A DNA stretch of 64,000 nucleotides from Enchytraeus crypticus (taxonomy: Eukaryota > Annelida > Clitellata > Enchytraeida > Enchytraeidae): contig CAJHZI010000780.1 of assembly GCA_905160935.1 (NCBI GenBank), positions 215,001-279,000 of the forward strand, written 5' to 3'. The notes beneath the pieces were generated by a model. It was given only the letters and a program-made list of their open reading frames with translations, was not told the origin of the DNA and searched no databases. Position numbers and translations under genes: made by a program. Shown here in pieces: positions 2,226-61,400 of this stretch; within the stretch, counting starts at the first letter, position 1; the number at the start of each line of letters is the position of its first letter.

Positions 2226-5200
2226 ATGGGTTCAGTGGAGAACTATGCTCCTGTCAAAATACACAAGTAAGTTGTAGCTTCAAGAATATTATATGTAATT
2301 TATTCAGATATAGTTAAACCTATTGTGGCGGATGAGGAAGTAGTAAAGAGAGTTTGGAGGGAAGAGCTGGATGTTAAGCAAGAGAGAGGTAGACCACAAC
2401 TGACATGGGATGCGATGATGAAGAAGGACGTAAAAAATAGGGAATTAACTGTTGTGTGGGAAACAATCTGCTGCCTGTACGTAAGAGGCGACTAAGGCAG
2501 GAGCTGAGGATAGAAGGAGGGGACTCGCCTCACCATGAAATATTTTACCCCTGGATTAAATGGTAATTAATTAGTATAACTGAGGAAGGCAATGGGAAAC
2601 TGCCTCAGAAGCCATACTTTTCCCAGGCTATAGGCTACATAAGGTATGGATAAGACATAGACTTTGTGAAGGGTTTAACTTATTGATCTAAGGAGTGCTC
2701 TTATGGAGTGAGAAAGCAGACTTTGAGTATGAATATATACCTTGAACCTGCCACTTGGCAGTGAACTGAAGAGAGAGAGATTATGTTTAGGTGTAATATG
2801 GTTTGATGGTTTTACTGCGACAGGTTTCACACGAAGCAGATCCTGATAAAGAATCTGCCGCAGCAGTGTGACAGAGAGGAGGTCAATAGTCTTGTCTCTC
2901 GCTTCGGCTCCGTCGAAAAGTTTGATCTCTGTAAGAGTTCTTGTTCTTTATTCTATGTTATCTATTGGTTCAATGGTTCAATCATGCTCTAGGTCTTATT
3001 CTTTATTCTATGTTCTCTAGGGGTTCAATCATGCTCTTATTCTTATTCTTTATTATGTGTTCTCTATCAGTTCAATTATACTCATGTTCTTATTATAAGA
3101 ACAAGAGCAATACTGTACGTAGTAGTTGTGAATAATTGTGTCTCATAAATCCCAGTCTCTTCGAGCATATGCGTACATGATCAGGCCTTTATGATTAACT
3201 TCTTGATTGATTGATTAATTTGTTGATTAATTTCTTGATTGATTGATTTGTTGTATATTTAATTGATTGATTGATTGATTAATTTGTTGATTAATTTCTT
3301 GATTGATTGATTTGTTGAATATTTAATTGATTGATTGATTGATTAATTTGTTAATTAATTTCTTTACTGATTAATTTGTTGAATTATTTGGTTGATTGAT
3401 TGATTGACTATGGTGTATGTATATTGTAAACAGTATCACAGGAGAAAGATTGTTCAGTGAGTATAACATTTCAGTCGGCTGATGAGGCTCAGAGGTTTGT
3501 AGTTTCACGCCTGACTGCATGTTCATTGTTAAGCCGTTAAACTGTTCACGAGAGAACGGGAGAAGTAGTTTTTTCCTCTAGGATGCTGCTGCCGTCGTAT
3601 TCTATAATATTATAAGCCTGCGAGGTTAAGTGTAGTCAGCTGATCTAGTAGAGAGAAGCTGTGATATGAACTAAAGTTTAAGTGGCATAACATAACATAA
3701 CCTAACATTACAGAGTCGGGAAGCAATTATATGCTTGTTTAAGACTCGTCAGGCTCTTAACTAAAACCAATTAATATTAATAACACATAGTTCAATGTGG
3801 CATGAATATTTGTGTTTTGTAACATATTCATAGAATCAGATTTGTGCTGAAACGGTTTTTATCTTTAAACAGTTGTCTAGTGTAAAATATGCCTGCTATT
3901 TTATTCATATTATTATTTTATCCTCCCTTTAATCCCAGTTTAACCAGGGCCGGGATACGAATAGACTATTTTCCATTCTTTTAAGTTTCTATAGCAATTT
4001 CTGGAGCCTAGGCGCTCGCCAACCATGCCCGCTATTTTATTAGTTCAAGAAAATGTACACTTTTAATTAAATTCTAAAATGTCTTAAAATTACATTTAAT
4101 TTAGTCCAAATCCTGTGTGTTAATTTTATTATTCTTGTCTAGAGTCACTGCTTGATTTATTGATGGATTAATAACTATCTAAGTGATTGATTATTTGACC
4201 ATGGTGCTTGAAGTATTAAATGTATGGGTTCTCAGCCATTTTCCAATGGATTGTTGTTGATATTTCTATTGAATGGGTGATTGATTGATTGATTAGTTGG
4301 TGGATGGATTAATCTTGCAATTGATTTAACTGATGATCATCCTTTATTCTCTGTTAAGATTGATGTAAGAGGACAATGGTTGATTGGTTGATTGATTGGT
4401 TGATTGATTGATTGATAAGGGCTCGCGAAGGATTGAACGGCGAGACTTTCCACGGAGCCATACTGAAGGTGGACTATGTGACAGAGAACGGCAGGCCGCG
4501 TGGCAGGTCCAGATCTGAGCCACGTACTTCCGTCGCAAACTCTCAGAAATCTGCTAATCTACCACTCAGGTACTCCTGTTGTTGTTGTTGTTGTTGTTGC
4601 AAACTCTCAGAAATCTGTCAATATTCTTCTCAGGTATTCCTGTTGTTGTTGTTGTTGTGAATTCTCAGAAATCTGCTAATCTACCCCTCAGGTATTTTTG
4701 TTGTTGTTGTTGTTGCAAACTTTCAGAAATCTGCTAATCTACCTCTCAGGTACTCTTGTTGTTGTTGTTATTGTTGTTGCAAACTCTCGGAAATCTGCTA
4801 ATCTACCTCTCGGGTATTCCTGTTGTTGTTGTTGTTGCAAACTCTCGGAAATCTGAGAGTTAACAGGGGACGCTACTCTAGCATCAGTCGTTGATTGTTG
4901 ACAGTGGACGCTACTCTAGCATCAGTTGTTGATTGTTGACAGTGGACGCTACTCTAGTATCAGTCGTTGATTGTGTTGTAGGATTCTGGTGCCCAGTCAG
5001 TTGTTGATTGTTGACAGTGGACGCTACTCTAGTATCAGTCGTTGATTGTGTTGTAGGATTCTGGTGCCCAGTCAGTTCATTGGAGCCATCATAGGCAAGA
5101 AGGGAGAGAGCATCAAATCCATCACCACCAAGTGCAAGGCTAGGTAATTAATAGATGCCTACTACTTTATCTCTCGTTTCTCTAAGTCAGCATTGACTTT

Positions 5201-8200
5201 GTCTTTTGTCTTTGACTTTGTCTTTTCTCTAGCTCTGGCTCCAGCCAGTGGCGATGTCAGTTAGATATCCGACGGCGAATCAGTATGTGCGGGGTTCAAA
5301 TCTTGTGCTCGCCCATCAGTGACATTGCTTTCGGTGAGGAGACTGATGTTAACATTAGCTTTACCATCTTTATCTCTCTCTCTCGGTTGTTCGTGGTTTA
5401 AACTCTACTACTTGTTATAGCCTCATTATTCTCTTCAGTGCGCTCTCTAAATATTGATATGGCTTTGTTAATGCAATGTTCCAACTTCTTGAATTTATAT
5501 ATATATAATAAGTTGACAAGTTTAAAGAAGTAACAAAAATCTGTTACTTCTTGGGACCCAAAAACTGAAGTGGCACCTAATGAGTCGTCGCTTGAGGTCT
5601 GGCCCTAAGCTGACTTGAGCCCTGCTATAGTGTAACTTCCTATCAGTCTTCTTCTCTAAGTGTCGTGCCTGTTCCAAGCCTGGGCGGTCATGGTCATATT
5701 CCTCCATATGTGTCTGCTCATTGTTGCTCTGATCATCTCTGTTTCAGTTAACTGCATCCATTTGCTAAGACTCTTAATAAACGTCATTCGTTGTCTACCC
5801 TTGCATGTTTTTCCTTCTGTTATTCCTGTCACTACAGTATTTTCAACTATTTTGTTCCGCAAAATGTGTCCGAAAAATTTCATCTGTTGTCGTCGTATTC
5901 GGTTCAAAAGGTCACGACAAGTTGACATTCTTTGTAGAACATCTTCATTTTTAACGTGGTCTTTATAAGATATCCTATCAGTACATGTAGACAAAGATAG
6001 CCATTTCGAATAATAATAGGTAATAGTTATATAATGATGTTATGAGGTTAGTGTAAATGTATAATAGTAATATCCCCACCCTAGCAAAACTGGGAGTCGA
6101 GTGTAGATGATGTTGATGAATATATGATAGTAGTATTTATTATAGTATTGTTAAGTAATTGTAACGTAATGATATTCAGCAGTAATATGATTTCAAAGCA
6201 TTGTGTGTAATAGTAATTACGATGGTGTAATGCTTGTAGGGTTGACGTGCATGGGAAGGAGAACAACGGACTGCTTGAGAAGGTAGTGAATGAGTTGTGC
6301 TATATTTCTAGAATGATTATATTATAGGTGGATTCGTTTGTAGATTCATCTGTATTTATGAGATTTTTTCGCTTGTTAGTATAGGGTTCTAATAAATGAT
6401 GTCGACTAAGCATTTGAATAACAAATTATTTTCTTTAAGTAGCACTGATATCTCTACATTTTTTATGACTTAACTTTTTTAACTTTTTATTGATTTATTA
6501 ACTTTCCATTCCTCTCCACTTTCCATTACAATAGAAAAATGTTTGAAAGTAAATACTTTCAAACATTAATCTATAGTAATGGAAAGTGGATTGCTTATTT
6601 ATTGATTTGTATTCTTGGATCCTCTTTAGTGTCTTAGTCACATCAGAGTTGTCGCTTGTAATTAGATTGACTATGGGATGGGATTGATTACTCCATAGAG
6701 TCTTGAGTGTAATTTATACTAGAGAACTGCTGTAAAGATTGATTGATTGACAGATTGATTGATTGATTGGTGCAGATCATATCTATCTATGGAAAGCCCG
6801 AGAACTGTTCGAATGCCTGTAGAGAAATACTTCAAGTCATATTGAACGAGACCAAGAACGGAGCTAAAACGTTTGTACTTCTACTCACTGACAGTTGTTG
6901 GGCATGCTAAAGTTATAAATGATGTGTTTATTAATTATCTATTATCAATAAAGTTAGTTTTTATGGACTATTTTATTGCGTTGCAGGAATATTCCGCCCA
7001 ATGGTAAGATTATTTAACTGTTACAGAGTTTGGTGTTTGGTTTAGGCCATCGTTCTTGGGTTTAGAACTATGTGCCTCAATATTCCTGTAACACAATAGA
7101 ATGATATTCCTGCAACACAATAAAATAATTCATAAAAACTAACTTTGTAGACGAAAAACATATTTTATAACTCTAGAATGCCAAATACAAATTGATTGGT
7201 TTATAGATTTTATTTAACTGAAATGATGGTTTTTTTTTTTTTTTTTTCTATAGCAGTGTCATGGCCTTAGATCGGCCCTATTATTCCCATAATTAATCCT
7301 TCTTTTCTTCGATAGCGCCAATACACAGGAAGCTTCGATACATGATTAACCTTCCAGGGTCCCTAGAGTAGTTATTGTGGACTAATTATTTATATTAGTT
7401 TATAATATAATTATTTTAATTTTATTATATATTATTAATAAATGTTATTAATTTATTAATAATATATTACTAATAAGTTAATATTTTAATAAGTTTTAAT
7501 AAGTTATTATTTAATTATTTTAGTTTGCCATGGAGGCCACATGATTCCTCGGCAAACACACTAACCATTATGCTGCAACCCCTAAGTGTTTGTATATACT
7601 AATTGATTGATTGATCGTGCAGAGAAGTGCCACTGAAGATGTTGACTAATGATCGTTACTGTGGTCGTATCATTGGTAAGGAGGGTCGCATGATTAAGAA
7701 GATAAGGGAAGAGACGTCTACCAAGATAGTTGTTAACAGGTAGCGACACTGTTGTTAAACATACATTGCTAGTTTTACTAGTCGTTTTATTAAACTATTA
7801 TACTGGCTGGAGCCAGTGGCGATATCGGTAGGATATTCGACCGCGGATCAGTATGTGCAGGGTTCAAATCCCGGGCTCGCCAGTCACTGACATCGCTTTC
7901 ACGACATGTCATCTCTCTACCCTGATCACGTGATATCTATCGTGACATTGTTATTTATTGTTGTTGTCATCCAGCGCTCACTCGTGACATAGTTATCTGT
8001 TGTTGTTGTTATCCAGTGCTCACTTGTGACATTGTTATTTGTTGTTGTTGTTATCCAGTGCTCACTCGTGACATTGTTATTTGTTGTTGTTGTTATCCAG
8101 CGCTCACAATATGTTATTTGTTGTTGTTGTTATCCTGCGCTCACGACGTGTTATTTGTTGTTGTTGTTATCCAGCGCTCACGACATGTTATTTGTTGTTG

Positions 8201-9346
8201 TTGTTATCCAGCGCTCACGACATGTTATTTGTTGTTGTTGTTATCCAGTGCTCATGACATGTTATCTCTCTACCCTGATCGTGTGATCTCCATCAAGGGG
8301 AACATAGATAACATGGTGCAGGCAGAGCTTGCTATTGCTGGTAAACTGGCTGAGTGTGTGGAACAGGATAGCAAGGTATGACTGCTCTCATAGCTCATTT
8401 TTACATCATCATCATCATCGCTCATTACATCTTTATGACAAGTTATGTAGCCGTCATGCAGACAGCGATGTTGCAAAATTGTTGTAAATTACCAAACTTT
8501 TGTTGGTCTGAGTCGTAATTAACCTGCAGATTGTTGTTTTGTTAGAGGAGACCGAAATATTAATATAGTGCGATAGTGTAGTTTTAATTGTATAATTTGC
8601 TTTCTTTTGCATTGAGTTTTTTGTGTAGCTTTTAAGCTGTGCATTAAAATTGTGTGATTAGTTGGTTTCTATGCTTGTAGATATGGACGACTTAAATTTA
8701 TTGTTTTGAAATATCTAAACGCTAAAGGTCTTCTAAATTCACTATCTTTTGACCTTGAATTGCCTGTCTATTGTCCTGACTATATTATATCTTGACTATC
8801 TATTGACTTGACTAGCTATCTATTGACTTGAATATCTATTACTTGACTATCTATTGACTCGACTATCTATTAACTCGGCTATCTATTGACTCGACCATCT
8901 ATTGACTCGACTATCTATTAACTTGGCTATCTATTGACTTTTCTATCCATTGGCTATCTGTTGACTTGACTATCTATTGACTAGGCTATCTATTACTTGT
9001 CTATCTATTGACTTGACTATCTAGTGACTTGGCTATTTATTGACTATATATTGACTGTCTATTGACTTGACTATCTATTGACTAGGCTATATATTGACTA
9101 GACGCTGTTTTGCTGTGTGCAGCACCAGGGCTACGTGGCGCCACATTTCATGACAGGCAGCTGTCAGTATGGATTAGCTCCTCCCACTGCTCCTGTAGCC
9201 GTGAGTGTCGCTAGCTTGTACATCTTCTGATTCTAAATTTGTTTTGAAGGATGACAGACGTCCTCTTCTGATTGATTGGATGCATAGATCAGTGCATTAT
9301 ATTTAACATGAAATTTTCTGACGGGAAGTATTATTAGCAAGTTTTT

Positions 9347-9416
<70 letters not shown>

Positions 9417-12293
9417 TCGATAGTTATATAGATTGATTAAATTATTTTGATTGATCGGTTGGTTGATGAATGGCATGATTGATTTATTTACTGATGGATT
9501 GGTATTTAGATTGACTGATTTAAGAATAGCTTGATTTTGATTGGTTAGGACCCTAAGTACTATGCACAGAACACTGGGACTCACATGTCCCGCTCGTGTC
9601 CCGCCAGTGTCGGAGGTCCCACGACAGCGGCGACCTTTCATGCGCCTAGGCACCACCAGGCTGTCGGTGTGACTGAGGTGGAGGAGTGCCAGGTGCTCGT
9701 GCCTAACTCTGCCGTCGGTGCCATCATCGGTGCTGCTGGTGCCAACATCAAACAAATGATGCGCTTCTCCGGGGCTTTCATCACGGTAAGATATGAACAG
9801 AAGAGAAGCTAACGTTAACGTCAGTTTACTCACTCAAAAGCGATGTCAGTGACGGGCGAGCCCATGATTTGAACCTCGCATATACTGATCCGCGGTCGAG
9901 TATCTTACCGACTTCGCCACTGGCTCGAGCCAGTGGAGAGATAACTATATATAGCTATTTTTATTTTTAAAACACTCAAATATGCAAGTACATAGAAGAA
10001 CTAATAAGATATTACGCAATGGTGCTTTCACAACAGTAAAATGTGATTCGCTGATGTTGAAGAGGTGAGGTCAGGGTTAGTGTAATTAGATGCTCTCATG
10101 GTGTTGACTACTCTACTCTACTACAAACTCTATGTACTGCAAGTTCAACGTTGCCTGCATCTGATGGTTTCTCTAAATCTCTTGAACTACTTCTACTAAA
10201 TTAGTAACGCAATCTCTTGAAGCCATCAAGTGTTTTGATTGATTGGTTGATTGATTGATTGAATTAATTGATTGATTACAGGTAGAATCAAGGAAGGACG
10301 CTGAACTGACACCGTCCTCTGAGCGCATCATTACCATACGTGGCACTCCTGATGCAAACTGGCGGGTTAGTGGTCGACACTTCTTCACTCTTCTCTGCAG
10401 CCGTTAATTAATTGATATGTTGTTTAGTGAATAACTTGGCTAGCACGTGGATTAGTGATAATTAATTGATATTTAGCGTCTAATTTAGCTCTCAGGGCTA
10501 TTATGGTGTGTATAGGGTAGCTTAGATGTTCATGAGTGGTCACTAATGTGTGTGTAGGGTAACTACTATGTTCCTATTGGTCACTAATGTGTGTGTAGGG
10601 TAACTACTATGTTCCTATTGGTCACTAATGTGTGTGTAGGGTAACTACTATGTTCCTATTGGTCACTAAGTGTGTGTAGGGTAACTACTATGTTCCTATT
10701 GGTCACTAAGTGTGCGTGTAGGGTAACTACTATGTTCCTATTGGTCACTAAGTGTGCGTGTAGGGTAACTACTATGTTCCTATTGGTCACTAAGTGTGCG
10801 TGTAGGGTAACTACTATGTTCCTATTGGTCACTAAGTGTGCGTGTAGGGTAACTACTATGTTCCTATTGGTCACTAAGTGTGTGTGTAGGGTAACTACTA
10901 TGTTCCTATTGGTCACTAATGTGCGTGTAGGGTAACTACTATGTTCCTATTGGTCACTAATGTGCGTGTAGGGTAACTACTATGTTCCTATTGGTCACTA
11001 AGTGTGTGTAGGAGAACTACGCCGTTCTCATTGGTCACTAATGTGTGTGTAGGGTAACTACTACGTCTTTGAGAAGATGAAGACGGAAGGATTCTCAGGC
11101 TTGGATGACGTACGGCTGATGACTATGATTAAGATTCCCAGAGCTGCCGTTGGCCGGGTAATTGGCAAAAACGGACGCAACGTGCGCGAAATACAAATCA
11201 ACACCAACACGATTATCAAGCTGCCGTTGGACAACAAGCCGCCAGCTGCTGCCTCGGCTGCTGCCTCAGTTGCTGAGCCAGAAAGCTCAGTCAGTGAGCA
11301 GCAGATTGACAGCAGCTCTCTTGTCGTCGTTGAGGTGCACGGAACATTCGTGTCTACCATGGTATGGACTGATTAATTGTAGCTTTACCATCGGTTCACG
11401 CTGATCGTTGTAAGGGTTAAGTTAATAACTAGCAAACAATAATACTATCGGTGATTAATGTTAAACTGTGAATATTTACTAGTTGTTTTATCGTTGCACT
11501 GAGCAGCATGGTCAATATTAGCCATTATTTCTGATATAATTTTGATCAATCTTCTTGTGGTGTTGAGTTTAAGACCTCGTCCATCAGACGCACAGGTCTG
11601 CAGGTTAATTTACCTTTCCTCGTACTAATGGACTCTGTACTAAGAACTATCAGTATCTCTCTAGCAGTGCTATCGCCTGCTTAGAGATGCTGAGCTTATT
11701 CTTCTTTACACACCCGGGTTTTGAACCTTTGCTGCTGCCAACAATTGATGCGGAAGGGCCTGGCTTAGCCAGTGGGCTGACACTCAGCGGCTAGACCTTT
11801 ACTAAACTATTTAGTTAATTACACTCGTGGTCTGGTTTATTATTTAGACTATTACTATTTCTTGGTCTGGTTTACTATTTAGACTATTGGTTTACTATTT
11901 AGACTATAACTATTTTGTTTACTTTTTTTCTGGAAATGTTAAAATGTTTCAATTTTGCCATGTTTAAGTTTGACGTATCCTGGCCTCAATTGTTTTCAGT
12001 AGTTTAATATCAATATTGGCTTTTAACATCTCTGAGTAAATTACTATGTTGTTGCCTGATGGATTGATGCTTCTTTGATTGATTGATTGACTGATTGATT
12101 GATTGACTGATTGATTGATTGATTGACGCAGGCTGCTCAACAGCGCATCAGGTACCTGGTGGACCTGGCTCTGAACGGCCCCGCTAGCAGCGGTGGAGGG
12201 GTGGGATCAAGCAACGCTGAGCTGGGGGGAGGTTACCACACCCACCCGAACCCCCGTCAGTCCCGTAGTGCCCCCAGGGTCAATACTGCTTGA
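2226..12293 (+). CDS. IGF2BP: IGF2BP/Imp-family mRNA-binding protein, 14 exons
   Basis: This protein binds mRNAs in cytoplasmic granules and controls their localisation, stability and translation. Coding exons: 2226-2266 (the exon may begin at 2211), 2824-2930, 3434-3494, 4420-4569, 5057-5143, 6240-6282, 6776-6870, 7623-7739, 8249-8375, 9123-9200, 9549-9785, 10282-10365, 11053-11361, 12132-12293. Phases match at every junction and give about 565 residues. Order: an RRM (QILIKNLP to LKVDYVTENG), an RS/RG-rich linker, KH1 (ILVPSQFIGAIIGKKGESIK), KH2 (GRIIGKEGRMIKKI), a linker, KH3 (GAIIGAAGANIKQMMRF) and KH4 (GRVIGKNGRNVREI), then a Gly/Ser/Pro tail ending in NTA. The start at 2226 (GAAGAAATGG context) is my choice; it gives one RRM, as in fly Imp, where vertebrate IGF2BPs have two. 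Odd points are the GAAG loop in KH3 and an Ala/Ser/Glu-rich insertion in KH4. The family is certain; the first exon is less so. Confidence 0.93.
2330..2780 (+). mobile_element. LINE 3' remnant with dispersed tail element E
   Basis: At about 2330-2450 the + strand reads as the C-terminal end typical of LINE reverse transcriptases, with a basic GRPQLTWD motif, and then decays. It continues into a tail (2572-2780) that recurs at 33200-33400 and, reversed, at 23270-23365: a GAGGAAGGCAA start, a CGAGAAAGCAGACTTTGAGT-like segment, a CTGCCACTTGGCAGTG palindrome, then GA repeats. It lies in the intron just upstream of the RRM exon at 2824. Confidence 0.6.
3186..3433 (+). repeat. (TTGA)n array ending at the acceptor at 3434
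   Basis: A degenerate TTGATTGA array fills the last 250 bases of the intron before the RRM exon. Similar arrays in sense orientation precede the acceptors at 4420, 6776, 7623, 9549, 10282 and 12132 in this gene. Confidence 0.75.
3927..3995. repeat. Dispersed element D copy
   Basis: CCCTTTAATCCCAGTTTAAC followed by a GGGATACGAATAGAC segment. Other copies are near 27655-27725, 30730-30800, 36240-36390 and, on the other strand, 23634-23710, 59225-59295 and 61565-61640. Confidence 0.6.
4533..4856 (+). repeat. Minisatellite of the exon end plus donor at 4569
   Basis: Units of roughly 57-66 bases, about six copies including the real one. Each holds the last coding bases of the RRM-KH1 linker exon (AACTCTCAGAAATCTGCTAA), the donor-like CTCAGGTA, then a GTT run. 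The first copy is the real exon end. Confidence 0.85.
4862..5056 (+). repeat. Tandem copies of the intron end and start of the KH1 exon
   Basis: A unit containing GGACGCTACTCTAG and GTTGATTG is repeated. At 4982-5000 the first 19 bases of the KH1 exon (GATTCTGGTGCCCAGTCAG) appear after a TAG acceptor, ahead of the real exon at 5057. Confidence 0.8.
5236..5371 (+). mobile_element. SINE-A copy (tRNA-derived)
   Basis: Near full length. It has a box A-like TGGCGATGTC and a box B-like GGTTCAAATC, then a CACTGACAT...GAAACTGA-type body and a CTTTACCA end. It lies within an IGF2BP intron. Confidence 0.8.
5645..5995 (-). mobile_element. LINE reverse-transcriptase C-terminal remnant
   Basis: The - strand reads as the tail commonly seen at the end of LINE ORFs (motifs LLNRIRRQQMKFFGHILR and GRQRMTFIKSLSKWM). 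There is no catalytic domain and it is open at both ends, so it is a dead fragment inside an intron. Confidence 0.75.
6515..6590. repeat. Hairpin, MITE-like
   Basis: Near-perfect inverted repeat: TCCACTTTCCATTAC with its complement GTAATGGAAAGTGGA outside, and AATGTTTGAAAGT with ACTTTCAAACATT inside. Confidence 0.7.
6897..7185. mobile_element. MITE-like inverted repeat
   Basis: Two arms of about 95 bases (about 6897-6994 and 7078-7185) are imperfect complements, for example TTGCAGGAATAT against ATATTCCTGCAA and AAAGTTAGTTTTTAT against ATAAAAACTAACTTT. The loop is about 85 bases and nothing is coded. It sits in the intron after the exon ending at 6870. Confidence 0.6.
7804..7900 (+). mobile_element. 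SINE-A copy, 3'-truncated
   Basis: tRNA-like half with GGCTGGAGCCAGTGGCGATA and box B GGTTCAAATCC. It breaks off at CATCGCTTTC and runs directly into a copy of the KH2 second-half exon border. Confidence 0.8.
7903..8248 (+). repeat. Minisatellite carrying the acceptor of the exon at 8249
   Basis: Seven or eight units of 35-40 bases with TTGTTGTTGTTATCCAG followed by a CTCACGACATG-like exon start. The first unit (about 7903-7945) also copies exon sequence further in (CTCTCTACCCTGATC). Every unit ends in an acceptor-like CCAG. Confidence 0.85.
8760..9110 (+). repeat. Minisatellite, CTATCTATTGACT unit
   Basis: About 20 imperfect copies of a 16-18 base unit containing CTATTGACT fill the intron up to the acceptor at 9123. 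Confidence 0.8.
9349..9413. repeat. (TA)n microsatellite
   Basis: About 32 TA dinucleotides in the intron before the KH3 exon. Confidence 0.95.
9806..9936 (-). mobile_element. SINE-A copy
   Basis: Full-length copy in reverse orientation, beginning about 20 bases after the KH3 exon donor. Box B reads as GGTTCAAATC on the - strand. Confidence 0.8.
10525..11052 (+). repeat. Minisatellite carrying the acceptor of the KH4 exon
   Basis: About 13 units of 40-42 bases. Each contains GTGTAGGGTAACTACTATGT, which copies the real acceptor and exon start at 11053 (GTAG then GGTAACTACTACG), followed by TCCTATTGGTCACTAA. Confidence 0.9.
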
Positions 12294-12590
12294 TTAACTT
12301 GTACCGTCTACACGCTCGTACAAGTTGTTTGATTAACTGTACCGTTCACACGCTCGTACATTTGTTTGATTAACTGTATCTCTTCTGTACCGTCCTCACG
12401 CTCGTACAAGTTGTTTGATTAACTGTACCTCTTCTGTACCGTTCACACGCTCGTACAAGTTATTTGATTAACTGTACTGTCCACACGCTCGTACAAGTTG
12501 TTTGATTAACTGTACCGTCCACACTCTCGTACAAGTTGTTTGATTAACTGTACCTCTTCTGTACCGTTTACACGCTCGTACGCATATTGT
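12288..12590 (+). repeat. Minisatellite starting at the IGF2BP stop codon
   Basis: Six or seven units of about 40-55 bases with TTGATTAACTGTACC and CACGCTCGTACAAG. The first unit includes the TGA stop codon itself. Confidence 0.85.
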
Positions 12591-14803: not shown

Positions 14804-14818
14804 CAAGTGGTTTCTCTG

Positions 14819-17800
14819 CTATGAAGTCAGCGGCACGACCTCCACGGCCACATCAGGAGAGACGGACTGAGACCTGGTGGTGGTGCAGCTCTGACTCGTC
14901 CTAGATGACATCCCTCTACCGCTCATCTGGTAGATCGAAGGCGGCAGACGTAACCTGAGCATGACGAGGAGTTCTCTGCGGAACTTCTGCCCCGAGAGGC
15001 AGTAGAGGAAGAAGTTGATGGCGTGGTTGAAGCAGGACAGCTGATGGGTGATTGCCCTAGCGAGGTAGTAAGCGTCTCTGTGAGGTTCCTCCGACCATCT
15101 CACCCGTCCTATCGTTAAAATGATGCTCGGGGTCACGCATACGAGGAAGGCAGCACTGGCGCTGAGGGACATCAACGTCGTTTGGGTGAAGACTCCCCTC
15201 GAGGCAGCTGAACCCTTAGAAGACTGGGGTGCCCTTGACGCGTGAGGGACCCCAGAACCCCGCTGAACCCTACCGTTAGAGGAGGCGTTCGACACGTAGC
15301 TTCGTTGACTGACAATCATCCGAGCGCTAGTGTGTCTACGTCTGTACCTAGCTCTCAGCAGCGTCCTTACTATCGCTATGTTACACGTCAGTATCACGCA
15401 GAAAGGAATGACACTGATCAACACGAAGGCAACCCACGGTCTTATCAGCTGCTCGTAGACGTAGTACGCCTCGGGGCGGCCACAGACAGCTAGCACGCTC
15501 TGATGGGGGCCCAGCACGGGACCTCGGGTCCAGAAGACGTGGAGGTTCTTGAGACAGGCGAGTAGGACGATGACCAGGCAGGTGATGTGGGCTCTGCGAG
15601 GGCGACCTGCCGCAGAGTGGCGCAGGAAGGGAAAACACACGGCGAGGAATCGATCGAAGGTGAAGGTCACTAGGATCCAGATAGCTACGTCGCTGGATGT
15701 GTAGAAGAGGAATTTCTCCAGCCTACAGGTCCACCTGGACATAGCAAGTAATGGAGTGGTTTATCCTTCCTGGATTTCTAAACCGTCTGAGATTAAAGAT
15801 CAATTCATGCATTCATTAGTTCTTTCATTTATTAATTCATTCATTCATTCACTCATTAATTTATTTGTTCGTTCGTTCATTTATTCTTTCAGTTATTCAT
15901 TCATTCATTCATTCATTCATTTATTCATTCATTCACTCATTCATTCTTTCGTTCGTTCATTCACTCATTCATTCATTCATTCATTAATTCGTTCATTCAT
16001 TAACTCATTCGTTCATTCATTAATTCATTCATCCATTCGTTCATTCATTCAACTCCACCCTCTAATTTATGTCGGAAGGCTTGAAGCAGTAACGAGTACC
16101 TATAATGTTTCAACTTGAGAAAAGTGCTTCTTAGGCCTGACATTAAGCAGACTATGTATTTGTAGAATAAGCAAAAGCTAATGTTAACGTCAGTGTCAGG
16201 GTTCGTGCTTCTATATATGTAAGTTTCTTTGCGTTTTCAATATGCTATATTGAATTACTGTAATGTTGTTGTTGTCGCGCGTAGCGGCAAAGAAGATGAT
16301 GCGGTTTGTTGTGAGTGCTATTTGAGGGACTTATAGAAGGTTTATATTAAGTAGCTAGTTTAGGATTAGCACGTTAGTTTTTAGTTCTAATCTCACTATA
16401 GCACCAGGCTGCATAATTTAGTTCTAATTAGTCGCCTAGTTCATAAATTAGTTATAGTGGTTGTTTTTTGAGTGTGGTTCTTTAAACGTCAGTTTTAAGT
16501 TTAGTTAGCTAGATTGTATTGAATAAAGGTTATGTGTTGAAGGTGATCTAAATATAATGATGTCTATTTTCGTGGTTAAAGTAATTTACTAAGTTCTGAT
16601 CGATGTTTGTTCTAGTTTAATTGTGCCCTAATTAATGTATTATTGTTCTTATTTTACTGTATTAAATTCTTCTTTCTTATTTAATTTCTACACGCTGATT
16701 TTGTCATGTGTTTAGTTAGTATAGACTTAAGTTATCGAAGCCAGAATAGGGTTTAACGTCCGTGTCTGGCAAGTGACGACTCAGATTTAGATCCTGTCCT
16801 GACAGTCAGTTTCCTCACTCGAAAGCGATGTCAGTGACGGACGAGCCCAGGATTTGAACCGCACATAGTGATCCGCGGTCGAATAACTTACCGACATCAC
16901 CACTGGCTCCAGCCAATGGAGTGGTTTATCTGTTCAAGCTTCCTCAACCGTCTAAGCTTAAGAATCAATTCATGTGTTAATTCGTTCATTCATTAATTCG
17001 TTCAGTCATTCATTAATTCATTTATTCATTCATTCATGCATTCATTCATTATTTCATTCATTCATTCAACTCCATCCTCTACTTCATATAGGAAAACTTG
17101 AAGCAGTAATGACTCTCTGGAATGTGTCAACGTTATAAAAGTGCTTCTGAAGCTTGACGTTAAGCAGACTACATGTGTGCACGAACCTGTTGAGTTCACT
17201 GAAGGTGAAGAGATGGATGGCACCGAAGAACTCTGGGCCAATGCGCGTGAATAGAGCCAATGTGTCAGCCACTGCCAGCCAACGTAGATACACACTCGTC
17301 GTTGTGCGCCGCATTCGTGGTCGACGCATGACTAGAAATGTAAGGGTGTTACCTGACAAATGTACACATATCGGTGCTATCAGTCAGGGTGTTACCTGAC
17401 ATATGTACAGATATTGCTGCTATCAGTCAGGCTGTTACCTGACAAATGTACAGATATTGCTACTATCAGTCAGGGTGTTACCTGACACATGTACATAATT
17501 ATATTGCTACTATCAATCAGGGTGTTACCTGACACATGTACACATATTGCTGCTGTTAGTCAGGGTGTTACCTTACACTTGCACACATATTGCTGCTATC
17601 AGTCGGGGTGTTACCTGATATATGTACAGATAATGCTGCTATCAGTCAGGGTGCTACCTGACACATGTACACATACTGCTGCCATCAGTCAGGGTGTTAC
17701 CTGACACTTACATGAATATTACTGCTATCAGTTAGGGTGTCAGTGACGGTCGAGCCCAGGATTTGAACCCTGCACTTACTAATCCGTAATCGAATATCTT

Positions 17801-19144: not shown

Positions 19145-19147
<3 letters not shown>

Positions 19148-20800: not shown

Positions 20801-20935
20801 CTGGAGCCAGTGGCGGTGTCAGTAAGCTACTCGACCGCGGATCAGTATGTGAGGGTTCAAATCCTGGGCTCGCCCGGCACTGACATCGTTTTCGAGTGAG
20901 AAAACTGATGTTAACCTTAGCTTTTTTAGTTTTAC
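20801..20935 (+). mobile_element. SINE-A copy
   Basis: Full length, with an intact box B GGTTCAAATCC and a CTTTTTTAG end. Confidence 0.8.
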
Positions 20936-21400
20936 AATGAGCAAGTGATACTTCCTATCTGCTCTCATCATATCTGCGGCCCCAGTACTTCGCTGTGTCT
21001 GTATCGATTCCTGCAAAAACGACAAACGACTCAACAGAGACCCGCTAATTAAGCCAGTCCATCGCCTTCTAGTTAACACTTCATACTATTAGACTCTCCC
21101 AGGCTTTATTCGTTTAGAATTCATTCATTAATAATTCACTTGTTACCAGTCAAGCCTTAACCATAAATAACGTCACTGTTTCAGCGTATACACAAGCCTA
21201 CCAACACACTCCTCCAAGCATGCGGAGCTCTTTTAGATGATAGATCCAATGCGCTAATTTATATGGTATACAGTCGATAGTGATTTGTTAATTAAAACTG
21301 ATCAAATCTATTAATCCAACTTGTGATATAATTGTGTAAATGAGTTAACACAGATCTAAATCAGATGTAACCTACTCAATTTTGTAACATGATACACAAT

Positions 21401-21537
21401 GGCTGGAGCAAGTGGCGAAGTCGGTAGGATACTCGACCGCGGATCAGTCTGTGCGGGGTTTAAATCCTGGCCTCGCCCGTCACTGACAACGCTTTCGAGT
21501 GAGGAAACTGACGTTAACCTTAGCTTTACCAGCTTTA
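21401..21537 (+). mobile_element. SINE-A copy
   Basis: Full length: GGCTGGAGCAAGTGGCGAAG start and CTTTACCAGCTTTA end. Confidence 0.8.
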
Positions 21538-23887: not shown

Positions 23888-24790
23888 GGCTGGAACAGGC
23901 TAATCTTATCCAGGCTGACTCCAGCAGTATTGCAGATATGAGAGAATTCTCTCTTTAGATGGTCTCTAAACAATGCGTAGAAATCAGCATCAGCTCATGA
24001 ATTCCGCCCTTATCAATGTACCAGCGTATGATACAATTCCTCGTAAAAGTGTGACGAGTCATTGTCAAGGTTGAACGACATAGCCAATTGGAAATAAGTA
24101 AACAGACACTAGAAGGTGAAGGTTGCATGCAGTTTGTTGACACACAAATGCTGTTTTTGCGTTGCCGATCCTAGCAGTTTGATCTTAAAAGCACAAAATA
24201 ATCGTTTTCAATGTGTTTCTTTCTTATTAGAAGATAGGAAATTGCAAAATGCTTTACAATATGTAATCATCAGCTTCAACAGGTTAAATATCAAATAAAT
24301 GTCAATTTAAGCAACATTTAATAATTTTTTTAGTATTTATCACTGTGTTCAATGCATTGTTTGTCAACAAATGGCTATCAGCTGTAGCGTCGTCACGTGA
24401 ACTGTGACTCAATGACTTTTGCGCAGGATTGAGTTGCGACCATTTTGTAAATATTAAATAAGAAAACAGCGAAGATTTTACTTTGTATTTCTGTTACAAT
24501 CAATTCGAGCAGAACTAGCATCATGTGGGCTTAATTCTATTTAATTATGTCACAAGCAATTTACAGGCCTATGCTAAGTTCTGTCAAACATTCAGATTTA
24601 TATAGCTTTCTTATATATTTTCTTAAACATTCCTATAGTAATCTCTATCCGCTGCATCAACTCATTATCTTCATAAAAGCCTATATTGCCATCCTATAAC
24701 TTAGCAAATAGTGATTAATCGTGTCTCTAGGGCTTAGCTCCTACCGATTAATCGTGTATCTATAGCTTAGCTCCTACCGATTACTCGCGT

Positions 24791-48902
<24,112 letters not shown>

Positions 48903-52924: not shown

Positions 52925-53270
52925 AGTCAGAATCATTAGAAACCAGAACAGATGAAATACAGTATCTGTCAGTTAGATACCAGAACAGATGAAATACAGT
53001 ATCTGTCAGTTAGATACCAGAACAGATGAAATACAGTATCTGCCAGTTAGATACCAGAACAGATGAAATACAGTATCTGTCAATTAGATAACAGAGCAGA
53101 TGAAATACAGTATCTGTCAGTTAGATTTCAGAACAGAAGAAATACAGTATCTGTCAGTTAGATACCAGAACAGATAAAATACAGTATCTGTCAGTTAGAT
53201 ACCAGAATAGATGAAATACAGTATCTGTCAGTTAGACACCAGAACAGATGAAATACAGCGTCTGCCAGCT
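52925..53270. repeat. Minisatellite, CAGATGAAATACAGTATCTG unit
   Basis: Nine units of about 37 bases. ACAGTATCTGT is near-palindromic in each unit. Confidence 0.88.
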
Positions 53271-53306
53271 TGACATTTACTACAGATTGAACAACACTCC
53301 GCTCAT

Positions 53307-53312
53307 TTTATT
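53307..53312 (-). terminator. Candidate poly(A) signal for the ALYREF-like gene
   Basis: AATAAA on the - strand, about 1.08 kb after the stop codon. No other canonical hexamer was noticed nearer, but usage is unproven. Confidence 0.3.
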
Positions 53313-54179: not shown

Positions 54180-54390
54180 CAGTGCTCTCATCAACTCCAC
54201 ACAGAAAGACCACTAGAACAGGTTCTCTCACAACACAAGCAGTCCCACACAACTCCTAGCACACAGAGACCACTACAACAGGTTCTCTCACTACACAAGC
54301 AGTCCAACACAACTCCTAGCACACAGAGACCACTACAACAGGTTCTCTCACTACACAAGCAGTCCAACACAACTCCTAGCACACCCGCAC
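54180..54390 (-). repeat. Minisatellite just after the ALYREF stop codon
   Basis: Three and a half units of 60 bases (CACAGAGACCACTACAACAG, CACAAGCAGTCCAACACAAC) beginning a few bases after the stop, so part of the 3'UTR. Confidence 0.88.
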
Positions 54391-54393
54391 ACA

Positions 54394-56382
54394 CTACTCC
54401 GTGTCCATCTTAGCGTTATAGGCGTCCAGCTGAGCATCCAGATCCTCCTTCGTCAGGTTCTTCTTACGATCTCCGTCCCCCCTTCCTCTTCCACCACGGA
54501 ACCCACCCCCACCACGCCCCCTGCCTGCGCCTCCACGCCCAAACCCACCCCGGCCTCCCCTCGAAGAACGAAAGCCACCCCCACCGCTGGATCCCCGGGG
54601 CCTGAAAGAGCTTCTCTGAACCGGGATGGGTCCAATACGACTGGAGAGGGGCTGGGTGGGGGCCGGGTCTCCCCCCACCAGAACAATCTTCATGGGCTGT
54701 TGATCGAGCGGAACGTTGTTGTACTGTTTGTAGGCTCTGACAGCATCCGCGCTGTTCTCAAATATGATCTCAGCCGTGCCGAGAGATCTGCCTGATCTGT
54801 AATCAATTAATCAAAAATTTACAAGTAAATCAATCAATCAGTCAGTCACTCAATTAGAAGTAAATCAATCAATCAATTATTTATACTTCAATTAATCAAA
54901 GCTCTGACAGCGTCTTGACTGTTCTAAAATATGATCTCAGCCGTTCCAAGAGATCTGCCTGATCTGTAATCAATTAATCAACCAATTTGAAGTAAATCGA
55001 TCAATCAATCAATTAATTATTAAGAAATCAATTGAAGCTCTAAGAAGCATAAGAAAATTAAAGAAGCACAAGAAAATTAAAGAAGCACAAGAAAATTAAA
55101 GAAGCACAAGAAAATTAAAGAAGCACAAGAAAATTAAAGAAGCACAAGAAAATTAAAGAAGCACAAGAAAAGCACTTCTTTACAAGTTTTAAAAGACTTC
55201 TGGATATAATGGTTATACATGCAAATAATTAATTAATAGTTAGGTCACGTAAAGATTTTCATATCTAAGGCTACAACATAGTTTAACGTCAGTTTCTTGT
55301 CACGACAACATGTCACAGGAAAATTAAAAATATAAAGACACACAAGAACCTAGCTAGGTATTTATTAACTTTTATTTTAAAGTTGTACTAGAACCCAGCT
55401 AGGGGTTTATTAACTTTTTCACAAAGGCGCACTAGAACCTAGCTAGGCATTTTATTAACTTTTCTGAAGAGTGATAGAACTTGCAGCAATTTCTCTCTTT
55501 TAGACTAGACTATAATAAAAGTTACAGAACTTGACCCAGAGATGTATTGAGTAACTACATTAATCTTTAAATCTCAAATTTAAATTTAATTTAAATTTCA
55601 AATTTAAATGTCGTAGTATTTTGCATTTCATATTTTTTATTCAGACAAATTGATACAAAAAACATCAAAAGAAGGTCTAATCAAATCCTGATTCTAGTTA
55701 AACAGAGATGATGATATTTAACTATATAATTTAAGAGATGATGAAGATATTTAGAAAAATAGCTATTATAAATTTATTTTATTTACTAATAGCTTTTTTA
55801 ATTACAACATTAATGTAGACAAAGTCAATTAAAAATTAAGTAACACGAATTACAGTGAGATGATCAACTATATTGATAGATCTATCACTTTTAATACCAC
55901 ATTTTAAACCAATTCTTAATATTCAATTTTCAAGTACAACAATGATCTTACTTGTCATAGTGAACTGCGGCTTTCTTCAAGTATCCAAATTCACCGAATA
56001 ATTCGTTGATATCGGAATCGTTGACGGTGAAAGCCAGATTAGAGATCATTAGAGTGCCTTCCTTAGAGGAGGCTCTATCGAAAGCCGGCACGGCAGCCGG
56101 TGGTCTCGCTACAGGCCGACTGTTTGGTCCATCGTACATATCGTGCTGCCATACGTCAGGCATTTGAGTCGGTCTATTGTACGGCTGCTGTGGCCTTCTT
56201 GCCTGTACGCCGCCCCGAACTACCCCTCCTCCGAACCCCCGGCCCCCTCGTCCGCCACTTCTGAAGCCACCACGGGGCGATCGTCCACTGCCGCCTCCAC
56301 CCCGGCCTCTACTTCCACCGCCGGGCTTTCGGTTTGCCTTGATGATATCGTCCAAGCTCATATCCATCTTATCAGTAGCCAT
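54394..56382 (-). CDS. ALYREF: ALYREF/THOC4-type mRNA export adaptor, 2 exons
   Basis: A nuclear adaptor that joins spliced mRNA and the TREX helicase UAP56/DDX39B to the export receptor. Exons 55952-56382 and 54394-54796 join in phase 2, giving 277 residues. The N-terminal UAP56-binding motif is intact ([16 protein letters not shown]), followed by an RGG-rich arm, then the RRM ([34 protein letters not shown]), a second RGG-rich arm and the C-terminal UAP56-binding motif [15 protein letters not shown]. The intron cuts the RRM after HYDK, before SGRSLGTA. The length is near that of vertebrate ALYREF. The start is the first ATG of the conserved motif; codons upstream are in frame but lack an ATG. 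Confidence 0.95.
54797..54985 (-). repeat. Ghost copy of ALYREF exon 2 start
   Basis: About 54898-54985 repeats 54733-54815, including GAGATCTGCCTGATCTGTAA and the AATCAATTAATCAA tail. About 75 coding bases are copied behind the same acceptor and TTGA-type repeat. Confidence 0.87.
55038..55172. repeat. Minisatellite, AAGCACAAGAAAATTAAAG unit
   Basis: Seven almost identical 19-base units in the ALYREF intron; looks recent. Confidence 0.92.
55846..55912 (-). mobile_element. SINE-B 3' fragment
   Basis: CGAATTACAGTGAGATGATC to TTTTAATACCACATTTTAAACC, about 40 bases from the ALYREF exon 1 donor. Confidence 0.6.
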
Positions 56383-58424
56383 TCGATCGGATTTCTGATT
56401 CAAGTGTTAGGTAGAACTAGAAATAAAAGACTGCGAGTTAAAAAACACAAACAAAGCCTGAATGTTTTCAAACCCGGATGAGGCGAAGAACCGCAATAAG
56501 AATGGAGCAAAAACAACATGGATGCAAACATTTTTAATTTTTACCTAACTGCACGCAATTGTACTGGTTCAGATAGACATGAAGACTTGCAATTACAGTC
56601 ATTAACCGTTAAGTTCTTGATGCTTAAACATGTAATGTTATAATTCCATCATTTCAGCCGTATTCTAGAGCTGTATAGTAGTATAATTGTATATTTTAAC
56701 CAAAGAACATAACATGACAACAATTAGAGTGCAACTGTCGTACGTGACAACATCAAGCACTATTGAGACAAATCCTAAGTGGCGGAAATTCCAGAATCCA
56801 CAAAACTAGCCCAAAGATAGAGAATTAAAGAAAAAATGTTTACGTGCTGGTCGCAATTCATAAACATATCATGGACGGAAACGAGAGATGATACTTGTAA
56901 GGCATGGAATGTGTAAAGGTGGGTCTTTAATTGCCTATGGATGGCGAAAAAATCGATTAGATAGCTTAGAACATGAAGATAAGCTAGTCCTCACAAATAA
57001 TCTAGAAGACTGATTCACAGAAGCCTGCATCACTTTATTTAAGTGAGAGACACGCATTTCTTTAAAGTTTTCGTGGAAATGGATTTGTAGGTTGAAGATT
57101 TTCTTTCACCAATTGCAGATCCTTTACAAATAATAAAAAGGCGTCTATATCATGTACACCTGTCCGAACTTCCTTCATTTCATGACTAACTTGAACCGAT
57201 AATATTGTAAATTTATTTCCTTCTAATTAATGATCTTATTTAATACTTTGTTTTAGTATTGATCCATTACTTCTCTAATCGTATTGTTGTTGTTGTTCTC
57301 AGTGTCAAAATTATGCCGACACCAGATGGATGAATTTTATGGCTTTTCCATAAAAGGTTTAACGTTCAGACAAACAGCACAGCTTTATGAAAGATGCAAC
57401 TTAACAAGTTTTGTTTTGTTTATTTAACTTAATTATACTGGTTCAGGAAGCCATAAAGACTTGTAGCACCAGTCCAGCCGTAATTTCATACCTTAATACA
57501 TAGAGACTGTAAAGGAAAATTTTTTATAACAAAGCATATAATAAAAGATTTATTTTATCGTTTGCAAGAATTTAATAAATTTAATTATTTTATTTAAATT
57601 ATTAACAGTCAAGCTCACACAAGAGACGTATTTCACGAGAAGCATATGCAACTCATAAAAGTATTACAATAAGAAAGAGACAGAACAGCCTGCAATTTAT
57701 AATTTAAATCAAAACCAGATTAACCCATAAAACCTGGTCAATCTACAGAACCAAGACTACAAAGCGAAATTAACCAACAAAACCAGATTAACCCACAAAA
57801 GGCTTCAGTCTACAATTTAAAATCAGAAAAGCCAACAATTTATGTCAAGCATGCTATTCACTCGGCCATCCAAGAATTCATTCAGCCATAAACCTTTCAG
57901 TTAACTAAAATAAGAAATACAATTTTAATCTCTGACCTCGGATCTACCAAGAGAGATCAACAGATAGAAAGATAGAGAGAGACACAGAGAGATAGAGAGA
58001 CACAGAGAGATAGAGCGATACAGAGAAAAGAAAGAGATAGAGATATACAGAGAGATAGAGACACATATAGATACAGTGAGATAGAGACACACGAGAGAGC
58101 AGAAGTTTGACTCCTTCGATTGAATTCTGTTGAAAATCTCGAAATGACAGGTTGTCAAAAAACCCGAAAGTCACTACAGAATTTCTAAATTCTATAAACT
58201 GCAACTCCGACCTCCATTTTAATGTATTTCTATACAACAATAACAACTCCACAACAGTCTAAAACAGGACATTACTACAAAAATTAGTAGTTATACAGAG
58301 ATGAGTATTAAAACACCTTAGTAGTATTATACTCTACATGCAACAGTACATCATGATTATATCTATGAAATGGCATCTCCTAATATATAAATCAAATGAC
58401 ACGCTGGGAATAGGTCCAGGAGTA
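56383..58424. other. Intergenic region, ALYREF promoter side and kinase 3' side
   Basis: No exon found. 56716-56870 is an element K copy; 57950-58095 is a GA/GATA-rich tract. The ALYREF promoter and 5'UTR should be in about 56383-56600; I see no clear TATA box. Confidence 0.5.
56716..56870 (+). mobile_element. Element K copy
   Basis: ACAACAATTAGAGTGCAACT, CAAGCACTATTGAGACAAAT and AGAATTAAAGAAAAAATG; internal deletion. Confidence 0.6.
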
Positions 58425-61400
58425 TCAGCTGAGTCCTTGAAGGATCTTGGACTTGTGTTCCAGATAGAGCTCCTTCATTCCTTCCATGTCCCTACTCGCG
58501 TCCAACACCTGCACATGTGCAAAAAAGATGGATGCACAATATTAGCAATACAAATGAAATTTATTTTGCATTTTCTGGTGGAAAGTGTTAAATATATTTC
58601 TATCACTACTGTTAGGCATAGAACGTAGAGATGTAAAGCTAAAGCTAGGGTTAATGTCAGTTTCCTCACTCGAAAGCAATGTCGGTGATGGGCGAGCCCA
58701 GCATTTGAACCCCACACCATCTGATCCGTGGTCGAGTATCTTACCGACTTCGTCACTGGCTCCAGCCAAAAACTGTTACATTACTATGTTACATGTAACA
58801 AATACTAGTATTCATTTTCATAATCTTATACTATCTTTCATATCTATTTACAGTAATGTAACAGTTTTTAATAGAGTGATTACTCAGCTAATTATAATTA
58901 ATAATAAATTAATAATTAAATTATAATTAATTAATAATTGATAATATATTCATAATTTAGTAATAGCAAGCAATGATAATATAATAATATAATAATTAAG
59001 GACTTATTAATTATTATAAGGACTTCAATTAATCAATCAATATTAAGAAATAGTTAAATATTAAATACCTAATAAAAATGAATAGTAACTTGCTTTTGTA
59101 TCTACTACCAAAATAAATATATTTTTAAAAATATACAGCATGACTACGAGATTCTTTGCTAGTATTCGACTCAGACTAAGATTTAAATGAATGCAATGGT
59201 GTGGGCATATGTGATTGGTGTCAGACAGAGACGATTGAAGAAGGTCTATTTGTATCGCGACCCTGGTTAAACTGGGATTCTAGAGAAGATGATGATAATT
59301 TGACTAGACCAGGATAAGCTAGAAAGGCTCTCACCAGTAGGGGTCCAGGAGAACGGTGGGGTCCCTCTCCCATCAGCCAGTCCTCATGTAGATCATGTAG
59401 GTCCTTGATGAAATCCTGCCAGTACACAAACATACATCATGTGTTACATCACATCATATGTTAAATGCATAACAATGTGCACATCATCTTATGTGTTACA
59501 CCACATTATATCATGTGTTACAACACATTATCTTACGTGTAACACATCATCTCATGTGTAACATACACATTATATTATGTTTTACAACGCATTATCTAAG
59601 TGTTACACACATCACTTCACGAGTTGAATAAATGCATCTGTTACGATTGTGTATCGAGTAATTAACTGAACCAAAATTTACAAAATTAAATAAGAGACTT
59701 CAAATTAGAGGCTTTGCAGTTTATTAAAAAATATTATAAAGTGATGCATGACACAAACTCACAGCGACAAAGTGGAATAGAAACAGATGAAATAGCAGTA
59801 TACCACGCTCATTCACTAAATTACTCACGCGCTCACTTGCAGGCTACTTACATATGGCACTTGGGCTTCTTCTTTACGATCTCTCACTTTGATTCTCTCA
59901 AAACAAACCTCAGGACTTGCTCGTAGATACACTGAAAAACACCACAATCTTACTCGTTATTTTAAGAGAAACTGTAATACACTGCAAAACACCACAATCT
60001 TACTCATTATAGTTATTTTAAGAGAAACTGTAATACACTGCAAAACACCACAATCTTACTCATTATAGTTATTTTAAGAGAAACTGTCATACACTGGAAA
60101 AAATTCAATACCTTATTCATTATAGTTATTTAGTACACTGTGGCACGACAAAGAAAGTAAATAACTAGTACTCTAAATAAAATTTCATAACCTGAAAGAT
60201 GGAATCACAAAATTAAAATTCTTAGACAAGTACCAATGAAATAGCATTATAGAGAGAGTAATAAATTAATATGTTAATTTAATATCACTAATAGCAACAC
60301 CTCGTCCTATGTCTGAATTGAAGCATGAATGCAAATGGGTCAATATAGGACTCTACTGGATCGTAAAAATGAATACTAGTAATTAAATTTTAATTAATAT
60401 TAAATTTTCAATTAATTTTGAATGTTTAGAAATAAATCATCCTTAAGAGTTTGGCACATGTGCTGCATCAAATCATCCGTGAAGAGTTATTAACCAGTAT
60501 GCTACGAGCAAGAGTATGCAATGAGAATCCACCATTCTTAGTAAGGACAGGACGGTTAAAAGCAGAAGAGAAGACGATACCAAACAGATCGACTTTGATC
60601 CGATAGGCTGCGACAATGTTCTGAAACCATTCGTCAAAGACTGTGTGCTCAACAGCGCTCAGTGACCCTCTACAGAGAACAAACAAACAATACAAAGAAG
60701 CAAACAAACAATACCAACATTTAAATAAGTAACAATCCAACAAAAATTCTGTTAAAAGCCACATTTAATAATAATACAGAATTCGTTAAATTATTCTAAT
60801 TGTTATTTATTACATGTCTTTCATTTTATTACATTTAATACACTTTTGTTTTTACTTAGAATAATGGCAAAGAGAAGATTAAAAGCAGAAAAAACTTGGT
60901 CCAACCTTCTCAAAGCATTCTCAGCAAACAGATATCTGGTGCTAAACAGAGATCTCTCAAGCATTCGAACAGGAGCCTTCTGCAAATAAAAACAGCGAGA
61001 TATCGGATTGATTAACACAGGCATGATTAACACAGACATGATTAACACAGACTTGATTAACACAGGCATCAATAATAATATAATTTTAAATAATCATTAT
61101 TCGGGATCTCATCAGTGTACGAATCTACTGAGACAGGTGCAAGCCGTGCCAACTCAATTAATTATTTGATTAATGAGAAAATAAGAAATGCGAAGAAATT
61201 GTGAGAATACAATCAATAAAATAAGAATAGCGGAGGAGTAGAGGACGTACAACTGGAGAAGTGTGCATGCCAGTGCGTGTGAGACAAGTGAAGTGGTTGA
61301 ACATGTAAGTCCATCGCTCAGGCTTCTCATACAGGTATTGCTGTTGTATTAATCAATCGATCAGTCAATCAATCTATCTATTAATCAATCAATAAGTCAA

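Follow-up and report, generated by a model that had tools for sequence, protein, structure and literature searches.

Minisatellites whose repeat unit spans an intron-exon boundary have been described in amphioxus, where such 'mirage' arrays duplicate the boundaries of Adh3, troponin C, the globins BflGb6 and BflGb9, and PGBD5, and where length polymorphism and normal splicing were reported (PMC3087553, PMC3902484). Here, we describe arrays of similar build in the annelid Enchytraeus crypticus, in a stretch of 64,000 nucleotides (hereafter the window) that covers positions 215001-279000 of its contig in an assembly of 802 contigs and 524,188,772 bases. As in the passages of the two papers that describe the amphioxus arrays, tandem units cross the splice border (10-160 bp there, in the globin and Adh genes), the additional copies are located within the intron, and many of these copies, which we call ghosts, retain intact splice signals. 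Unlike those passages, which concern single genes and both 5' and 3' boundaries, the present case involves an annelid host, about 30% of the sampled acceptors and a strong bias towards acceptors. Length polymorphism and normal splicing are, in these accounts, features of the amphioxus arrays; the arrays described here are known from the sequence of one assembly alone. Judged at that level, they are of the mirage kind on every feature examined, namely the border-spanning unit, the intron-side copies, the intact exon and the retained AG or GT.

Three further systems are partly comparable, as far as the relevant sections of the reports describe them. In a potato RdRp gene (PMC4974935) a duplication likewise extends over an intron-exon border, but it created a new intron there, whereas the copies in the worm lie within an existing intron and mostly at one of its ends. 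The earthworm metallothionein clone Lr6F14 (PMC12783039) shares with our case an annelid gene, duplicated exon sequence that is missing from the transcript and intronic minisatellites within the gene family, although the part of that report on these genes describes no border-spanning splice-site arrays; these exon duplications are possibly related to the worm arrays. The CeRep25B element near alternative exons of Caenorhabditis elegans (PMC4039745) is likewise an intronic minisatellite tied to splicing decisions, but is presented there as a dispersed family that has a sequence of its own, unlike the local copies of splice junctions found here.

Junction copies at acceptors and donors

Junction arrays recur beyond the window and are chiefly a feature of acceptors. 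A border was scored when a stretch spanning it, with at least 5 exon bases and at least 24 bases in total, recurred ungapped in the adjacent intron; arms were capped at 60 bases and low-complexity matches were removed. The test was applied to gene models of the window rebuilt by hand from the DNA sequence: an IGF2BP-like gene on the forward strand and, on the reverse strand, genes for a rhodopsin-type G protein-coupled receptor (GPCR), a VWA/EGF protein, an ALYREF-like protein and a deoxynucleoside kinase. Pfam domains agree with the identities of all four window genes submitted, and the fifth gene contains VWA matches. Four models are open through every exon with no internal stop, and the VWA/EGF model has a single frame break at about 31.1-31.7 kb. 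Together they contain 43 introns (86 borders), the same number as in the original prediction, which had been made by eye from the window's sequence and had listed 18 borders with extra copies across all five genes.

Each of these 18 borders carries a junction copy in the adjacent intron, one of them (given as 34522) being placed at 34518. Copies were found at 20 of the 86 window borders, and removal of the donor at 31051 as low complexity leaves 19, comprising 14 acceptors and five donors, with at least one in each of the five genes; the claimed dominance of acceptors is thus borne out. The exon share of the arrays is 5-58 bases, limited by the arm, the copies are 84-100% identical to their junction, and the ghosts number from 1 to 17 (up to about 16 had been predicted). 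The exon is left intact and the extra copies are intron-side, with reading frames running through the exon-attached copies (e.g., in the IGF2BP-like gene and at locus L034).

A second sample, consisting of 63 introns from seven TCP1/HSP60-family genes (PF00118), was picked by family irrespective of repeats; other PF00118 genes, including those on contigs C774 and C372, were left out. Models from a small homology-anchored gene finder, subsequently corrected by hand, show copies at 20 of 126 borders, of which 18 are acceptors and two are donors. As the arrays recur in genes chosen in this manner, ascertainment, which had been offered as one possible explanation, does not account for them. In the pooled set of 106 introns from 12 genes, which underlies the results below unless a sample is named, copies occur at 32 acceptors and seven donors (Fisher p=1.2e-5). 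At least one acceptor array is present in 11 of the 12 genes, on several contigs; locus L034, open through ten exons, has copies at seven of nine acceptors, and locus L032 at none of nine.

As the introns are rich in minisatellites, interior points of the same introns served as the control. Under a strict null, which counts interior points flanked by a copy on just one side, as in the last unit of an array, the rate is 170 of 4368 (3.9%; window, 81 of 2004 or 4.0%; TCP1/HSP60 introns, 89 of 2364 or 3.8%). We consider this null the fair one because the exon is kept intact and the border can therefore only sit in the last unit of an array. A loose null, which asks for a copy on the tested side and ignores the other, gives 599 of 4368 (13.7%; 343 of 2004, or 17%, in the window and 256 of 2364, or 11%, in the TCP1/HSP60 introns). 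Copies are more frequent at acceptors than either null predicts (strict, p=6e-20; loose, p=9e-6), whereas at donors they are at most weakly above the strict one (p=0.12). A count of arrays leads to a similar result: the 43 fully intronic arrays predict 2.9 crossings per border type, or 4.5 with the unit length of the acceptor arrays, so that the 32 acceptor crossings represent 7 to 11 times the expectation (donors, p=0.03). The prediction that borders are hit more often than random placement within the same introns would allow thus stands for acceptors and, at most weakly, for donors. Two stricter thresholds left 31 and 23 acceptors and six and four donors, the strict null being 3.2% and 2.9%, respectively, and no border of either type was hit in two rounds of dinucleotide-shuffled introns (0 of 212 each for acceptors and donors).

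Random tandem duplication combined with tolerance, with no hotspot, would account for the donors, which lie near the null, and for some crossings in general, given the array-rich interior of the introns; the acceptors, by exceeding even the loose upper bound, render it very improbable. Random, mostly intergenic stretches totalling 200 kb (L009-L028), which contain few confident de novo genes and inform on background repeat density only, give 4.3% by the loose and 1.4% by the strict measure (1936 points). Introns are thus about three times richer in minisatellite-like repeats by the loose measure, which ranges over the whole intron in one case and 700 nt in the other. The GC content of four random genomic stretches is 33.6-36.2%, and the genome has been reported at 525,192,231 bp and 35.41% GC in the genome description, where the assembly is a MaSuRCA hybrid of PacBio and Illumina data (PMC8460440). 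In such an assembly the copy number of long identical arrays may be wrong, but an assembly artefact as the source of the arrays is scarcely credible: the window copies are mostly diverged, arrays are spread over several contigs and 11 of the 12 genes, and an artefact would not prefer acceptors over donors.

The acceptor excess also bears on the proposal that introns arose by duplication of AGGT-type exon segments (the Rogers model), a route that the original prediction had mentioned. Splice-site-containing duplications did make an intron elsewhere, in the potato gene, as the relevant part of that report describes (PMC4974935). This model, however, expects one and the same segment at both ends of an intron, whereas mostly the acceptor end alone is duplicated here (32 against seven). 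In the both-ended intron that we compared, a 487-nt intron at 4570-5056 made up mostly of a donor array and an acceptor array, the two unit sequences differ. We regard birth of these introns by such duplication as highly improbable.

Sequence context and the fate of ghost sites

The position of the arrays points to the used acceptors themselves. Array right ends are concentrated at the acceptor, with 40 between -20 and +79, nine between -100 and -21, and eight between -300 and -101, and in the 74 introns with no acceptor-crossing array, array coverage is flat (10-17%) up to the acceptor. Interior acceptor look-alikes, defined by YAG with a T-rich lead (n=432), lie in a last unit in 1.9% of cases and have any copy on that side in 12.3%. 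The former value argues that local sequence context does not explain the acceptor excess. Pyrimidine content does not differ significantly between array-bearing and other acceptors (0.545 and 0.564; p=0.56). The acceptor triplet reads TAG in 17 of 32 array-bearing and 25 of 74 other acceptors (raw counts), and array-bearing introns tend to be longer (median 808 versus 589, p=0.051). Their intron-side GC content is higher (p=0.0007), as expected because the units carry exon sequence.

Simple repeats near acceptors, such as (TTGA)n, (TG)n and (TTG)n, could seed slippage or breakage, with the resulting duplications covering the nearby AG by chance. Such tracts do occur inside several units, and simple repeats cover 15% of the last 80 nt of array-bearing introns and 12% of that of other introns, compared to 4.5% after donors and 3.6% in mid-intron. 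The difference between array-bearing and other acceptors is, however, not significant (p=0.15; any simple repeat present in 17 of 32 and 26 of 73, respectively), 15 of 62 acceptors with no simple repeat at all are still array-bearing, and arrays do not become more frequent towards the acceptor in introns that lack a crossing one. Seeding by simple repeats is, on balance, quite unlikely to be the main cause. Tracts of (TTGA)n before acceptors (e.g., at 10235-10281 and 12057-12131 of the window) were seen across all gene loci. After donors, TTGATTGA was found in 0 of 106 introns in every 20-nt bin of the first 80 nt.

The sequence preceding the acceptors is itself unusual, as the tract is T/G-rich with 3-15% C at -20 to -6 and does not resemble a classical polypyrimidine tract. 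TTGAT peaks at -20 to -11 from the acceptor; this pentamer matches the YURAY branch-point pattern, and branch-like YURAY motifs number 2.83 per 60 nt before acceptors compared to 0.85 within introns. The (TTGA)n tracts are thus possibly reiterated branch points.

The splice dinucleotide is retained in 111 of 122 acceptor ghosts (AG) and 26 of 31 donor ghosts (GT), and a scan blind to the dinucleotide gave 70 of 81 and 7 of 7, respectively. In that blind scan, 7 of 118 ghost AG sites (5.9%) depart from the consensus of their array, compared to 50 of 1239 other positions (4.0%; p=0.33; a small sample). Unit lengths show no frame bias, the distance to the nearest ghost being 0, 1 and 2 modulo 3 in 10, 10 and 12 of the 32 acceptors, in line with the predicted prevalence of units that are not multiples of three. 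Judged by sequence, then, the ghosts show signs of neither purging nor conservation. When sites are scored with a simple matrix, the top-ranking ghost equals or exceeds the real acceptor in 24 of 32 introns; what singles out the real acceptor is probably something beyond local site strength, perhaps exon definition.

The main rival to a mutational origin is selection for redundant 3' splice sites, under which extra copies would be kept because a larger number of AGs, tracts and branch points close to the exon would aid splicing or serve as decoys. The acceptor bias fits this explanation, as do the enrichment of YURAY motifs and TTGAT and the concentration of (TTGA)n before acceptors, and the C-poor tracts could mean that the acceptors are weak. 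A first comparison, in which ghost AGs showed 11 mismatches in 244, below most intron positions, also pointed this way; that comparison was biased and was not upheld by the dinucleotide-blind scan, in which ghost AGs are not conserved relative to their neighbours. Array-bearing acceptors are, moreover, no different in pyrimidine content; the arrays hold anywhere between 1 and 17 copies, no favoured number being evident, and their units show no frame bias. The decoy or buffering role proposed earlier finds no backing in these data, and we consider selection an unlikely explanation overall. As ghost AGs deviate at the background rate of drift and the units show no frame bias, a neutral hotspot is favoured over selected decoys.

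We therefore favour, with a probability of roughly 60%, the explanation that these are mirage-type minisatellites, generated for the most part by a hotspot of duplication at active 3' splice sites and then undergoing neutral turnover. The basis of this reading is the existence of the arrays, their recurrence outside the window, the acceptor bias, the absence of a context effect and the absence of a sign of selection on ghost AGs. In this mechanism, a local tandem duplication would generate a unit spanning the intron-exon border, and this first duplication would be tolerated with the exon-attached copy functioning and the extra copies remaining intronic. The array would then grow and shrink like any minisatellite, its ghost sites drifting neutrally. 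The acceptor excess would stem from mutation linked to splicing or transcription at that site and not from selection. Tentatively, we propose that used 3' splice sites are hotspots of tandem duplication through such a coupled process, leaving about 30% of acceptors self-copied and largely sparing donors and acceptor-like unused sites.

Several observations weigh against a neutral hotspot at used acceptors or limit the data behind it. Sense-strand (TTGA)n also clusters at acceptors, occurring in the last 80 nt of 29 of 105 introns and in mid-intron in five of 105, which hints that something at the 3' splice sites of this genome favours iteration. Array left ends cluster at donors too (19 between -60 and +39, four between +40 and +179), and donors may share a weaker effect. 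The mean acceptor score of ghosts (3.39) is below that of real acceptors (4.84), with random interior AGs at 0.32, and selection for extra 3' splice sites that did not require the AG itself would leave similar ghost AGs. In the window alone, 19 of 86 borders (22%) barely exceed the loose null of 17%. A third sample of six single VWA exons, with borders as called by the program and with L001 and L006 excluded as lying inside one long open frame, was low, with copies at one of six acceptors and none of six donors. The genes are not a random draw, and points within one intron are non-independent. Finally, 10 of the 106 introns are frame-inconsistent and hold five of the 32 acceptor matches (frame-consistent introns only: 27 of 96 acceptors and seven donors), and the presence of AAC as one acceptor triplet shows that not every border is correctly placed.

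Individual arrays of the window and their surroundings

On the forward strand, the donor array at border 4569 of the IGF2BP-like gene (4535..4855) is composed of 58-64 nt units containing 35 nt of exon end plus the GT, which is present in all four ghosts. It shares its intron with the acceptor array at border 5057 (4859..5077; unit about 75 nt, exon part 21 nt). Two further acceptor arrays follow, at border 8249 (7944..8265), with about eight copies of a 37-nt unit and an exon part of 17 nt, and at border 11053 (10506..11063), with about 13 copies of a 42-nt unit and an exon part of at least 11 nt. All remaining arrays are on the reverse strand. At border 17352 of the GPCR gene (17343..17740), the acceptor array contains about nine copies of a 43-nt unit with 10 nt of exon, and an acceptor copy at border 26533 of the VWA/EGF gene (26520..26753) is shifted by 206 with an exon part of 14 nt. 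An inverted repeat was noticed by eye at about 26580-26900, in the intron adjoining the latter.

Further acceptor arrays are found at border 29333 (29321..29524), with about five copies of a 41-nt unit and 13 nt of exon, at border 31164 (31107..31324), where the 112-nt unit includes a TTGA microsatellite and 58 nt of exon, and at border 34774 (34747..35301), where a 32-nt unit with 29 nt of exon is present in about 17 copies and the AG is kept in 14 of 16 ghosts. Acceptor copies lie at border 31725 (31675..31900; shift 128, exon part 51 nt), border 39060 (39048..39165; shift 68, exon part 13 nt), border 39605 (39572..39812; shift 144, exon part 34 nt) and border 42814 (42752..42923; unit 89 nt, exon part 56 nt). 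The donor arrays of this strand are those at border 34518 (34322..34574; unit 132 nt, exon part 57 nt), border 41296 (41012..41328; units of 53-64 nt, exon part 25 nt) and border 43865 (43306..43890), the last with about 16 copies of a 34-nt unit, an exon part of 24 nt and the GT in 15 of 17 ghosts. A weak donor copy at border 37088 (36879..37096; shift 187, exon part 9 nt), the intron side of which is mostly TCAA repeat, was absent from the earlier list. In the ALYREF-like gene, an acceptor copy at border 54796 (54734..55011) is shifted by 167 with 45 nt of exon, and in the deoxynucleoside kinase gene the acceptor array at border 59931 (59927..60131) has units of about 50-56 nt and 5 nt of exon.

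Other repeats of the window were recorded alongside. Minisatellites at 12290-12581, 54192-54384 and 24713-24792 start where a coding region ends or no more than about 20 nt away, and array edges may also mark stop-codon ends. Reverse-transcriptase-like frames, LINE-like by eye, lie at 45168-46546 within an intron of the VWA/EGF gene. A dispersed repeat with a tRNA-like box (GGTTCAAATCC) occurs in introns and between genes on both strands, for example at 7803-7890, 20805-20890 and 21400-21490, and by eye resembles a tRNA-derived SINE. VWA-domain exons are numerous across the genome, with at least 155 matches (150 of 317 candidates scored).

For the mitochondrial contig (C802; 15,205 bp), tRNAs called by ARAGORN and open frames in translation table 5, named by eye except COX1, give the order nad5-F-E-P-T-nad4L-nad4-C-M-gap-V-gap-L-A-S-L-nad1-I-nad3-nad2-cox1-N-cox2-D-atp8-Y-G, followed by an apparent cox3. 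Five ARAGORN calls within genes or on the opposite strand (Thr-agt, Lys, Ser-aga, Met-tat and Leu-cag) were set aside, and the reading covers the contig up to about 11,950 apart from 7601-7615. The mitochondrial section of the genome report gives a molecule of 15,205 bp and the Lumbricus gene order save for one displaced non-coding segment (PMC8460440). COX1 fragments broken by stops, likely nuclear mitochondrial copies, are present on contigs C361, C424, C796 and C373, above the family cut-off, and on C166, below it.

A recurrent mirage pattern across genes of one annelid

In the open-licence literature we found no mirage arrays outside amphioxus and no genome-wide count of them. The kind of array is already known, a correction to the original prediction, which knew of no genome with multi-copy arrays at such density; what appears to be new is an occurrence in an annelid, together with the density and the bias towards acceptors. 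Mirage arrays, hitherto described in a few lancelet genes, are here seen to recur across the genes of an annelid, and the polarity of acceptors over donors constrains any mechanism proposed for their formation. The pattern suggests that transcription or splicing can influence the places at which DNA is duplicated. The arrays call for caution in gene prediction in such genomes. They also supply material from which new splice sites and introns can form and, as natural tandem sets of comparable acceptors, they bear on how the spliceosome picks the right one.

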